Shown: in pieces, positions 1 to 6,832 of the stretch | Layout of the letters: every line of letters begins with the position of its first letter | Position numbering within the stretch: the stretch's first letter is position 1 | Assembly: GCA_017516785.1 (NCBI GenBank) | Contig: JAFXAV010000046.1 | Location: 1 to 6,971, forward strand | Reading direction: 5' to 3' | Origin: Oscillospiraceae bacterium | Lineage (GTDB): Bacteria; Bacillota_A; Clostridia; Oscillospirales; Oscillospiraceae | DNA: 6,971 bases | Made by a program: the position numbers and the translations under genes | The notes under the pieces: generated by a model | What the model saw: only the letters and a program-made list of their open reading frames with translations | Told to the model about the DNA's origin: nothing | Database searches by the model: none

Positions 1-5
1 CATTT

Positions 6-81
6 GGATAACCTCCATTGATCTTGTTTGTAAGGGGTTGCCGAACCTTCTTACAACTCTATCATCGGAGGTTTCCTTTTT
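6..81 (+). terminator. Long imperfect hairpin followed by a T tract
   Basis: The outer stem pairs 6-16 with 67-76 (AACCTCC with GGAGGTT, plus flanking GGA/TCC around one bulge). A short TGAT/ATCA stem follows at 19-22 and 61-64. The inner stem pairs 28-34 with 50-56 (TTGTAAG/CTTACAA) and then GGTT with AACC around a GCCG loop at 40-43. Five T follow at 77-81. The shape fits a large Rho-independent terminator for an upstream gene outside the window. It is unusually long for that role, so it could instead be the 3' part of a small structured RNA or a palindromic repeat element. The pairing is seen directly; the function is inferred. Confidence 0.5.
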
Positions 82-1744: not shown

Positions 1745-1777
1745 ATGGATAGGTGTGCCTATGAACGAATCTTATGA
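1745..1777 (+). other. Possible 10-codon upstream ORF overlapping the pcrA start
   Basis: An ATG at 1745 opens a reading frame for MDRCAYERIL that stops at TGA 1775-1777, inside pcrA and out of its frame. GGAG at 1732-1735 lies 9 nt upstream. If pcrA transcription starts near 1737, that GGAG would be outside the main transcript and the ORF would be used only on read-through RNA from sigF. Such short ORFs arise easily by chance. Confidence 0.15.
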
Positions 1778-4205
1778 AGCACGGTTTCTGACCGCAAGAC
1801 GGCAGTATATCGTTTCTCAATTTCAGAACTTAAATAACATGCAGCAGGAAGCTGTTCTGACCACCGAAGGCCCGCTGCTTCTGCTGGCTGGCGCCGGCAG
1901 TGGCAAGACCACGGTGCTCATCAACCGAATCGCCAATATCATGCGCTTCGGCTGCGCCGCGGACAGCTATGAAATCCCCGACACCTTGACGGAAGATGAC
2001 GTGGAGTTTCTGGAAACCATCACCGAGGACTGCTCCGACTTTGACCGACACCGGGCAGACTGGCTCTGCGCCCTGCGCCCCGCCGCCCCCTGGAGCATCA
2101 TTGCCATTACCTTCACAAACAAAGCTGCCAATGAGCTGAAAGAGCGACTTTCTGTCCTGCTGGGCCCCGAGGCCCAGGATATCTGGGCCATGACCTTCCA
2201 TTCCGCCTGCTGCAGGATTCTTCGCCGGGAGATTGAGCGGATGGGTTATTCCAGAAGCTTTACCATCTACGATTCCTCTGATTCCGAGCGGGTAATGAAG
2301 GACATCATCAAGGACATGGGACTGGACGACAAGACTTTCCCCGCCAAGGTGGTGCTTCATGCCATCAGCAAGGAAAAGGACAATCTTACCACTCCTGAAG
2401 AGCTTCTGGAGCGGGCAGAGCAGACCAACGACCTGCGGATTCTCCATATTGCCAAGGCCTATCAGAAGTATCAGGCCCGGCTGAAGGAGAACAATGCACT
2501 GGACTTTGACGACATCATCTGTGTCACTGTAAGGCTTTTGCAGGAGCACGAGGATGTTCGCCGTTACTATCAGCGGAAGTTCCGCTATGTGCTGGTGGAC
2601 GAGTATCAGGATACCAACCATGTCCAGTACCTGCTGACCAGCCTGCTCGCCGGTGGCTATGAGAACATCTGTGTGGTGGGCGACGATGACCAGAGTATCT
2701 ACCGCTTCCGGGGAGCAACCATCGAGAACATCTTAAGCTTTGAGCAGCAGTACCGTGGTGCCCATGTCATCCGTCTGGAGCAGAATTACCGCTCCACCCA
2801 GTCCATTCTGAATGCCGCCAATGCCGTCATCGCCCATAATCTGGGCCGAAAGGGTAAGCGGCTCTGGACCGCCAACGGCAGCGGTGAACCCATCACCATC
2901 TACGAAGCCTTTGATGAAGGCGCGGAAGGCAATTTTGTCGCCGGTCAGATTATTGCCGGCTCAAAGGGCAAGAACTTTAAGGATTACGCCATCCTGTACC
3001 GCACCAACGCCCAGTCCAACGCCATGGAATTTGCCCTGAAGCGCAACGGAATTCCTTACCGGGTCATCGGCGGCATGCGGTTCTTCGACCGGGCAGAAAT
3101 CAAGGATATGCTGTCCTATCTCTGTGTCATCAACAACCGGGCGGATGACCTGCGGCTGAAGCGTATCATCAACAATCCTCCCAGAGGCATCGGTGCCAAG
3201 ACGGTGGAGACTGCTGAACGGCTTTCTCAGGCAGAGAGCAAACCCCTTTACAGTGTGATTTCCGACCCCTATTCCTACGCACCGCTGGAAAAACCTGCCA
3301 TGAAGCTGATGCAGTTCACCTCTCTGATTGAGAGCCTTGCTGAGCTTCTGGATACCGGTATTACTCTGCCTGACTTCTACGATGAGCTTCTCGCCCGCAG
3401 CGGCTATGCGGATATGCTGATTGCCAAACCTACGGAGGAGAACAAGACCAAGCTTGAAAACGTCCGCGAACTGAAATCCAGCATCAATTCCTATGTAGAG
3501 AACGCTGAAACGCCCACTTTGGCAGGATTCCTGGAGGAAATTGCCCTGTATACTGACATTGAACAGTACAATGACTCTGATGATGCGGTGGTCATGATGA
3601 CCATGCATTCCGCCAAGGGTCTGGAATTCCCCCATGTGTTCCTGGTAGGCTTTGAAGACGGCCTGTTCCCCGGTATGCGTGCCATCGGAGACCAGGAGGA
3701 AATGGAAGAAGAGCGGCGGCTTTGCTATGTGGCCATCACCAGAGCAAAGAAAACCCTGACCATCAGCCACGCCAAGCAGCGCATGCTCTACGGCAGGACC
3801 AATGCAGCGCTGAAGTCCCGGTTTCTGAATGAGATTCCCGAGGAATGTGTGGTTCATAAGGGCGGCTTCAAACCCAGATCCGAAACCCCTGCCTACGGTT
3901 CCTATGGCTCCTCCTACGGTGGCTATGGTACGCCCTATCAGCAGCGCAAACCCACTGCCCAGCAGCTTGCCAAAAAGGAGCATATCAAGCGCAGCGAAAC
4001 TTCCAGCCTCATCGGCACCGCGCCCAAGGCTGCATACTTAGACCTCAACAAGGGCGATATGGTGCTTCACGCCGCCTTCGGCAAAGGCATGGTGCTGTCC
4101 GTCATGAAAATGGGCGGCGATGCACTGCTGGAGATTGCCTTTGACGATATCGGCACCAAAAAGCTGATGGCAAAGACCGCTTCCGCTCATATGAAGAAGC
4201 TTTGA
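1761..4205 (+). CDS. pcrA: ATP-dependent DNA helicase PcrA (UvrD/Rep family, SF1A)
   Basis: A 3'-5' SF1 helicase of 814 aa acting in repair, replication-fork clearance and removal of RecA or stalled polymerase. Motifs, numbered from the chosen start: Q motif about 23-32, Walker A AGAGSGKT 43-50, Ia AITFTNKAA 115-123, Walker B VDEYQDTN 279-286, III VVGDDDQSIYRFRGA 305-319, IV RLEQNYRSTQS 338-348, V VMMTMHSAKGLEFPHVFLVG 611-630, VI RRLCYVAITRAKKTL 652-666. The C-terminal Tudor-like domain (about 765-814, GDMVLHAAFGKGMV) is the RNA-polymerase-binding module of PcrA. A Tyr/Gly/Ser-rich linker lies at 712-726. The protein is about 75 aa longer than Bacillus PcrA, largely because of an acidic insertion at about 64-109 between motifs I and Ia. 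The ATG at 1761 is preferred because AGGTG (1751-1755) is 5 nt upstream; a GTG at 1755 would add two residues. Confidence 0.96.
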   Translation: MNESYEARFLTARRQYIVSQFQNLNNMQQEAVLTTEGPLLLLAGAGSGKTTVLINRIANIMRFGCAADSYEIPDTLTEDDVEFLETITEDCSDFDRHRADWLCALRPAAPWSIIAITFTNKAANELKERLSVLLGPEAQDIWAMTFHSACCRILRREIERMGYSRSFTIYDSSDSERVMKDIIKDMGLDDKTFPAKVVLHAISKEKDNLTTPEELLERAEQTNDLRILHIAKAYQKYQARLKENNALDFDDIICVTVRLLQEHEDVRRYYQRKFRYVLVDEYQDTNHVQYLLTSLLAGGYENICVVGDDDQSIYRFRGATIENILSFEQQYRGAHVIRLEQNYRSTQSILNAANAVIAHNLGRKGKRLWTANGSGEPITIYEAFDEGAEGNFVAGQIIAGSKGKNFKDYAILYRTNAQSNAMEFALKRNGIPYRVIGGMRFFDRAEIKDMLSYLCVINNRADDLRLKRIINNPPRGIGAKTVETAERLSQAESKPLYSVISDPYSYAPLEKPAMKLMQFTSLIESLAELLDTGITLPDFYDELLARSGYADMLIAKPTEENKTKLENVRELKSSINSYVENAETPTLAGFLEEIALYTDIEQYNDSDDAVVMMTMHSAKGLEFPHVFLVGFEDGLFPGMRAIGDQEEMEEERRLCYVAITRAKKTLTISHAKQRMLYGRTNAALKSRFLNEIPEECVVHKGGFKPRSETPAYGSYGSSYGGYGTPYQQRKPTAQQLAKKEHIKRSETSSLIGTAPKAAYLDLNKGDMVLHAAFGKGMVLSVMKMGGDALLEIAFDDIGTKKLMAKTASAHMKKL

Positions 4206-4215
4206 TGCATACCCT
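4187..4215 (+). promoter_or_regulatory. Candidate SigE promoter for yunB
   Basis: TCATATG at 4187-4193 matches the SigE -35 KMATATT at 6 of 7 positions. CATACCCT at 4208-4215 matches the -10 CATACAMT at 7 of 8. The spacer is 14 nt, within the 14-15 nt norm. The promoter lies over the last codons and stop of pcrA. Transcription should begin near 4221-4223, immediately before the yunB Shine-Dalgarno. In Bacillus subtilis yunB belongs to the mother-cell SigE regulon, so the location makes biological sense. Continued transcription would also reach ligA. Confidence 0.6.
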
Positions 4216-4227
4216 CCATCCGGAGGG
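4212..4227 (+). promoter_or_regulatory. Hairpin masking the yunB ribosome binding site
   Basis: CCCTCC (4212-4217) pairs perfectly with GGAGGG (4222-4227) around a 4-nt ATCC loop. GGAGGG is the yunB Shine-Dalgarno, 6 nt before the ATG at 4234. GCA (4207-4209) and TGC (4231-4233) could add three outer pairs across an internal loop. No T run follows, so it is not a terminator. In RNA reading through from pcrA the site should be hidden. RNA starting near 4222 would lack the masking strand. Confidence 0.55.
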
Positions 4228-4233
4228 ATGTGC

Positions 4234-6832
<2,599 letters not shown>

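Follow-up and report, generated by a model that had tools for sequence, protein, structure and literature searches.

Gene order and predicted hairpin

The window analyzed here is a stretch of 6,971 nucleotides from an Oscillospiraceae bacterium (contig JAFXAV010000046.1), and the element in question is a predicted RNA hairpin that covers the Shine-Dalgarno sequence (SD) of the sporulation gene yunB and whose 5' arm overlaps the −10 element of a sigma-E-type promoter. Pfam domains and gene order identify a single row of genes on one strand (spoIIAA, spoIIAB, sigF, pcrA, yunB, ligA), and the features at and around the pcrA-yunB junction are as follows.

1761–4205, + strand: pcrA (UvrD/PcrA helicase), open reading frame with Pfam UvrD-helicase and PcrA_UvrD_tudor matches
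4187–4193, + strand: −35 region TCATATG, read from the sequence; its ATA (4189–4191) stands 19 bases before CATA
4205–4217, + strand: 5' arm of the masking hairpin, from the predicted fold
4208–4215, + strand: −10 element CATACCCT, of the form CATAnnnT kept in relatives; predicted transcription start (+1) at about 4222
4222–4235, + strand: 3' arm, from the predicted fold, with the SD GGAGGG (4222–4227) and the beginning of ATG 4234–4236
4234–4857, + strand: yunB, sporulation protein YunB (Pfam PF09560, 96.9 bits)
4859–6832, + strand: ligA, NAD-dependent DNA ligase (Pfam)

The pcrA stop codon TGA occupies 4203–4205, and an alternative pcrA start lies at GTG 1755. The likely yunB start is ATG 4234, six bases past the SD; ATG 4228 abuts the SD, and the YunB match begins at residue 1 in most relatives. 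The downstream gene has its own SD, GGAGG, at 4849–4853.

The first-pass annotation had noted that CCCTCC at 4212–4217 is exactly complementary to the yunB SD and that this masking strand overlaps the −10 element. Letters, coordinates and overlap were all correct, and the stem proved longer than described: the predicted fold pairs 4205–4217 with 4222–4227 and 4229–4235 (13 pairs, plus an isolated pair 4203–4237), so that the stem overlaps the pcrA stop codon by its final base and ATG 4234 by its first two. The hairpin has a predicted energy of −20.6 kcal/mol (z −5.34), which 0 of 200 shuffles equaled, and RNA lacking the 5' arm folded ordinarily (z −0.50 from 4218, z −0.02 from 4222). Opening the SD was calculated to require 15.6 kcal/mol in the long RNA versus 0.5 kcal/mol in RNA cut at the predicted +1. 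An exact CCCTCC-N4-GGAGGG is present a single time in the window; since 67 of 200 window shuffles also match when 2 mismatches are allowed (mean 0.40), the bare repeat by itself is not remarkable, and it is the folding that is.

Inverted repeats between genes can also serve as terminators, RNase sites or protein operators, a reading we regard as hardly credible here. No T run follows the stem and a terminator scan gave no terminator-like site at the hairpin, by which an intrinsic terminator was ruled out; a known RNA family was likewise ruled out, with no Rfam match in the window at the gathering score; and, against an operator, the stem letters change among lineages while the SD stays within a stem in most of the loci inspected. 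A plasmid search with the junction gave no match.

Genome sets and measure of masking

The near set comprised 80 relatives (L001–L080) with 61–88% YunB identity, mostly labelled Oscillospiraceae, Clostridia or Eubacteriales, and some Faecousia. A pcrA match lies upstream of yunB in 80/80, and ligA downstream in 76/80 within the DNA examined. Junction tests on this set used n = 80, that is 79 relatives and the window, after leaving out L068, which has no −10; four relatives with CATATATC at the −10 (L042, L044, L047, L054) were positioned by hand. For the distant set, 232 of 300 genomes of the family had a YunB match; a part of that list was used, skipping 13 places inside the stretch taken, and of 90 loci read, 80 were tested (33–52% identity) after exclusion of L136–L141 (≥65% identical) and of L172, L191, L198 and L200. 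The class-wide set came from 117 of 196 genomes with a YunB match, of which 110 loci were read, 18 with a weak SD were dropped and 92 were usable. Class-wide loci were called embedded if the longest upstream frame was co-directional, had at least 100 codons and ended no more than 150 bases before the yunB start; this context was assigned mechanically, and some assignments are surely wrong.

Masking was measured as the energy (kcal/mol) required to open the SD hexamer, with a long RNA running from at least −60 to +35 and the predicted +1 set 7 bases after the −10. Two null models were used, in which the promoter part was either shuffled (with CATA and T held fixed in the near set) or swapped between loci.

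Sigma-E-type promoter

The first-pass annotation read TCATATG and CATACCCT, separated by 14 bases and ending at 4215, as a SigE-like promoter. The letters were confirmed, and the sequence has the sigma-E-type combination of a CATAnnnT −10 and an ATA about 16 bases upstream. Among 81 junctions (80 relatives and the window), CATAnnnT was found in 76, of which 71 have it −23 to −29 relative to the start and 5 have it farther off, at −36 to −41; with CATATATC in four of the other five, a −10 stands beside the SD in 79/80 relatives. The SD begins, at the median, 1 base before the predicted +1. As to the −35, an ATA stands 18–19 bases before CATA in 40 of the 76 junctions with CATAnnnT, window included. 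The window's −35 letters fall within the pcrA codons for HMKKL, which most relatives keep with about 15 more bases before the −10 (the pcrA-yunB spacer of the window being correspondingly short), and in most of them different letters occupy the −35 position, which often coincides with the pcrA stop codon. As a conserved −35 element, the letters originally proposed thus do not stand: they are kept as pcrA codons, mostly away from the −35 place, and only the ATA spacing is kept, in about half. That this spacing persists while the letters change speaks for a real promoter.

In Bacillus subtilis, yunB is a member of the sigma-E regulon. The junction pattern fits the sigma-E elements described for Clostridioides difficile, where the mother-cell regulon table gives YunB (CD0782) a ratio of 0.32, in a column taken as the sigE mutant, and no mapped promoter (PMC3789822).

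Class-wide, the yunB −35 leans to AC rather than ATA (L256–L285, L316–L395; among embedded loci with n = 28, A at −19 in 82% and C at −18 in 57%). An AC-type −35 marks sigma-K in C. difficile, and outside the window's family yunB may, judging from these letters, be read by a different mother-cell sigma factor.

Masking in near relatives

In the near set, the mean SD opening energy was 7.81 kcal/mol in the long RNA and 2.04 kcal/mol in RNA from the predicted +1, and 3.92 of 6 SD bases had their partners before that +1 (n = 76). Shuffling the promoter part (60 replicates) lowered the long-RNA mean to 5.34 (sd 0.25, max 5.88), and swapping promoter parts between loci lowered it to 6.53 (sd 0.30, max 7.11). 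Taken singly, 31/80 junctions were above 90% of their own shuffles, and 25/80 with a simpler shuffle. The near-group mask, as predicted from these folds, thus holds up as an average without being strict, and is partly a product of composition and shared promoter letters.

Control genes in the same genomes

Two further sigma-E-type genes that share this −10 and its approximate distance from the SD, spoIIIAA and ylbJ, were examined in 30 near genomes; their matches were all below the curated model cut-off and were accepted by E-value, and 25 of the 26 spoIIIAA loci examined also had an M-x-C-[AR]-W start. No excess masking was found for spoIIIAA (3.58 versus 3.62 in the null; 2/25 above 90% of shuffles), and for ylbJ in these genomes 1/29 loci was above 90% of shuffles. 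An opening energy of at least 8 kcal/mol was reached in 0/25 spoIIIAA loci, versus 38/80 near and 47/80 distant yunB loci. Because spoIIIAA and ylbJ show no mask, sigma-E geometry alone does not make one.

A long leader gave no excess either: for spoIVA (22 of 27 loci examined) the values were 4.94 versus 4.97, with 1/22 above 90% of shuffles. The ligA SD was below its null in both sets (near, 3.22 versus 3.88 with 0/76 above 90% of shuffles; distant, 2.81 versus 3.13 with 4/63), so that by these predictions the ligA site is open where the yunB site is closed. SpoIIM, meant as a further control, gave no match to TIGR02831 in any of the 30 genomes.

Distant relatives and gene context

In the 80 distant loci, the mean SD opening energy was 8.64 kcal/mol versus 5.24 when shuffled (sd 0.23, max 5.78), with 46/80 above 90% of shuffles, and in the swap test the loci's own promoter parts gave 8.58 versus 6.04. 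The SD partners again lay largely before the predicted +1 (3.24 of 6, in 57/80 loci with CATAnnnT), and opening from +1 took 3.20 kcal/mol. Unbroken helices of at least 6 pairs were present in 22/80, versus 11% in shuffles. The stems vary in letters: in some loci the arm is the −10 itself, and in others the arm precedes the −10, which then lies in the loop. In 47/80 distant loci pcrA was not found upstream of yunB. Among those without it (L173–L225), eleven viewed had a Mur ligase or Met_gamma_lyase-family gene upstream (two by Pfam, nine by eye), and ligA was often still downstream.

The class-wide set allowed masking to be compared between gene contexts. The 36 embedded loci had a mean opening energy of 8.47 kcal/mol and a mean z of 2.21, with 22/36 above 90% of shuffles, versus 4.94, z 0.28 and 8/39 where the upstream gene points away; co-directional but far loci gave z 1.09 and 4/8, and loci of unclear context 1/9. 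Comparing the embedded loci with all others (13/56) gave p = 5.6e-5, and averaging over protein clusters gave p = 0.0003, 0.0015 and 0.033 at 70%, 60% and 50% identity, respectively. Swapping lowered the embedded mean from 8.47 to 5.41, and that of the others from 4.78 to 4.18; unbroken helices of at least 6 pairs were present in 12/36 embedded loci versus 8% in shuffles, and in 8/56 others versus 6%. In the embedded class-level loci, 4.10 of 6 SD bases had partners before the predicted +1 (n = 28), and opening from +1 took 1.90 kcal/mol.

Ten genes upstream of masked yunB (eight class-level, two distant) were identified by Pfam families pointing to tyrS, spo0A, rpoD, thrS, codY and ppx, and otherwise to a solute-binding protein, argB (amino-acid kinase), murD (Mur ligase) and a Met_gamma_lyase-family enzyme; the finer names (thrS, rpoD, argB, murD and the like) were given by eye behind the Pfam families. 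That the mask stands behind many different upstream genes suggests, as far as sequence comparison goes, that it has arisen repeatedly. The mask is kept on average with changed letters in the distant and embedded loci, and it is not kept throughout the near set.

These comparisons bear on whether the pairing is a functionless by-product of composition, in which a G-rich SD stands beside a C/T-rich discriminator and pairs with it. The near set lends this some color, in that swapped promoter parts already reach most of the observed opening energy and unbroken helices there are close in number to the null. Against it, spoIIIAA and ylbJ have like discriminators by eye and show no masking, the distant and embedded sets exceed both shuffles and swaps on average and have an excess of unbroken helices of at least 6 pairs, and the mask is linked with operon context; we consider a by-product improbable. 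Shuffles, swaps and control genes together speak against chance on average, although for the near set the counts of unbroken helices do so only weakly.

Proposed mechanism

We consider it probable that the yunB site is a promoter-embedded ribosome binding site (RBS) mask, closed in read-through RNA and open in RNA from its own sigma-E-type promoter. Read-through RNA from pcrA would carry the hairpin, with the yunB −10 DNA and the bases up to +1 as 5' arm and the SD and start codon as 3' arm; yunB would be poorly initiated on this RNA, and ligA, with its SD open, would be translated. In the mother cell, sigma-E RNA polymerase would begin right at the SD, near 4222, making RNA that has no 5' arm and from which yunB would be translated. 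We infer the +1, the existence of the read-through RNA and the size of the translational effect. The interpretation is partly supported, and well so at the family level, by the excess of the predicted mask over the nulls and over the controls of the same geometry, and by its tie to operon context.

Several results weigh against this interpretation. In 11/80 near junctions that keep the −10, opening takes less than 4 kcal/mol, that is, the mask is absent (L013, L016, L022, L029, L036, L038, L039, L049, L052, L060, L069); the arm is thus not retained wherever close relatives keep the promoter, a kind of loss that the first-pass annotation had listed as refuting its proposal. Unbroken helices in the near set are barely above shuffles (at least 6 pairs in 16/80 versus 18%; at least 7 pairs in 14% versus 6.4%). 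Locus by locus, the swap test is modest: above 90% of swaps were 12/80 near junctions, 22/80 distant loci and 10/36 embedded loci, and also 10/56 non-embedded ones. Class-wide, 14/36 embedded loci are not above 90% of shuffles, and 8/39 loci called divergent are. The pcrA start, meant as a control, was itself positive (5.77 versus 3.57, sd 0.19; 30/63 above 90% of shuffles). Finally, the window's stem starts within the pcrA stop codon, at its third base, where a ribosome ending pcrA would sit over the core of the 5' arm.

This last point raises translational coupling, in which ribosomes finishing pcrA melt the 5' arm, so that any translation of pcrA also yields YunB from the operon RNA. With a reach taken as 12 bases beyond the stop codon, a ribosome there covers all six core arm bases in the window, and at least one arm base is in reach in 15/80 near junctions, window included. 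The arm lies beyond reach in 64/80 (1 has no arm), a geometry that counts against pure coupling, and in the 36 embedded class-wide cases the upstream stop codon lies 41–142 bases before the yunB start. Coupling seems unlikely to us, if slightly less so than a by-product of composition.

For the window itself, the mask is probably somewhat leaky because the pcrA stop codon touches the stem, and some coupled yunB translation is likely, with ribosomes finishing pcrA opening the mask now and then. The earlier claim that vegetative RNA passes over yunB without translating it may accordingly be too strong for this genome. The two-promoter switch proposed with it is partly supported, by the conserved −10, an arm mostly before the predicted +1, the excess masking and the link to operon context; the near losses and the coupling in the window count against it.

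Operon membership is usually taken as co-expression. If the promoter-embedded mask is real, a gene in a housekeeping operon could be transcribed constantly and yet be expressed in one cell type, with the letters of its promoter serving as the lock on its ribosome site. This would explain how sporulation genes settle harmlessly among vegetative operons, and would advise caution, in spore formers, against taking RNA levels as a guide to protein output. Complementarity between a −10 region and the SD beside it provides a signature with which to search for further cases, and because mask and context are linked across the class, the idea lends itself to direct testing.

Comparison with known systems

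The closest precedent is in phage T4, where genes e, soc, 49 and I-TevI have a late promoter beside or within an RBS-masking hairpin: a helix in the long early RNA buries the SD or the start codon, and RNA made from the late promoters of gene e, which lie just upstream of its SD, is without the 5' part and is well translated (PMC3014915). The effect for e is about 100-fold, and in related phages the late promoter lies within the DNA of the 5' strand (PMC3014915). The likeness to yunB lies in the predicted masking of its long RNA; its promoter elements and their geometry would fit a start beyond the 5' arm. The yunB case, known from sequence alone, differs in that a sporulation gene on a bacterial chromosome sits in a housekeeping operon, that its promoter is of sigma-E type, and that the mask stands behind many different upstream genes.

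A second precedent is B. subtilis sigG (spoIIIG), also a sporulation gene downstream of another operon, for which a large hairpin in spoIIG read-through RNA has been proposed as a barrier to translation; transcripts that start at the sigG promoter are unable to form it (PMC5942855). That gene is a forespore gene behind a sporulation operon, with a hairpin of at least 20 pairs, whereas yunB is a mother-cell gene behind vegetative genes and its −10 box is itself part of the arm.

The same gene has a small RBS hairpin of five pairs that occludes the SD, with a measured damping of 2–4-fold; it is present in RNA from sigG's own promoter, and the damping is seen both early and late (PMC5942855). The yunB hairpin could by analogy be present in every yunB RNA, from a start further upstream, and simply damp translation, given that the yunB start site is a predicted one. 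The close placement of CATAnnnT beside the SD, the same geometry in spoIIIAA and ylbJ, and the difference between embedded and other yunB genes argue against this, and we find it very improbable, only slightly less so than a terminator, RNase site or operator.

The type of mechanism is known from T4 e and proposed for sigG; among the papers listed in searches of the open-licence literature, none was found on masking of yunB, on how widely it occurs or on its link with gene context.

The sigF-pcrA junction

A second predicted hairpin stands at the preceding junction of the window.

1702–1762, + strand: sigF-pcrA junction, with a sigma-A-type promoter TTGATG-17-TAAAAT followed by a hairpin (1729–1762) over the pcrA SD, from promoter scan, fold and near relatives

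In the window this promoter overlaps the sigF stop codon. Near pcrA starts have TTTACC-17-TAAAAT just upstream (−35 in 51/63, −10 in 52/63, with a −10 finder that gives a bonus to TAAAAT). The predicted pcrA +1 falls inside the 5' arm: the SD opening energy is 5.78 kcal/mol in the long RNA versus 2.70 from +1, and 2.25 of 6 SD bases pair after +1 versus 1.78 before. Swapping promoter parts gave 4.41, versus 5.77 for the loci's own. The pcrA hairpin may be a reciprocal mask that stops spoIIA read-through from making PcrA, or it may be another leader control; alternatively, these genomes may have more masks at gene starts than one would gather from the other controls.

It is possible, though we hold it doubtful, that in Clostridia promoter-embedded RBS masks are a general insulator where two programmes share a transcript. 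They would then act here twice, in opposite directions, with spoIIA-sigF RNA masking pcrA, freed by sigma-A, and pcrA RNA masking yunB, freed by sigma-E, and a new mask would evolve each time a mother-cell gene came to lie downstream of a housekeeping gene.

Similar sites at other genes

A strict pattern, CATANNCTCC-3..6-GGAGG-4..10-ATG, was matched 50 times across 49 of 400 genomes, and the reversed pattern 6 times. Of 30 matches read, 3 were yunB, 10 were other sporulation genes by eye and 17 were chance-like or non-sporulation sites. A CATAnnCTCC box with complementarity to the SD beside it was seen at L227, L235, L238, L239, L242, L243, L244, L246, L249 and L255, in front of genes that by eye are cwlD, a deacetylase (pdaA-like), spoIIM, spoIIIAA, ylbJ and sigK.

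Class-wide, ylbJ and cwlD were compared by context after 8 of 90 loci were dropped. For ylbJ, 4/11 embedded versus 2/13 other loci were masked, which hints at the context rule with too few loci to say; cwlD, taken as a second test of the rule, gave no effect (1/10 embedded, 4/19 other). Two ylbJ loci close behind another gene (L423, L424) have strong SD hairpins, with opening energies of 14.5 and 13.6 kcal/mol, respectively. Among the spoIVA leaders (L081–L107), many have a hairpin GGCAGGAG...CTCCTGCC followed by AGGAGG, placing an SD-like sequence, an anti-SD and the true SD in a row, in which the anti-SD could pair with either.

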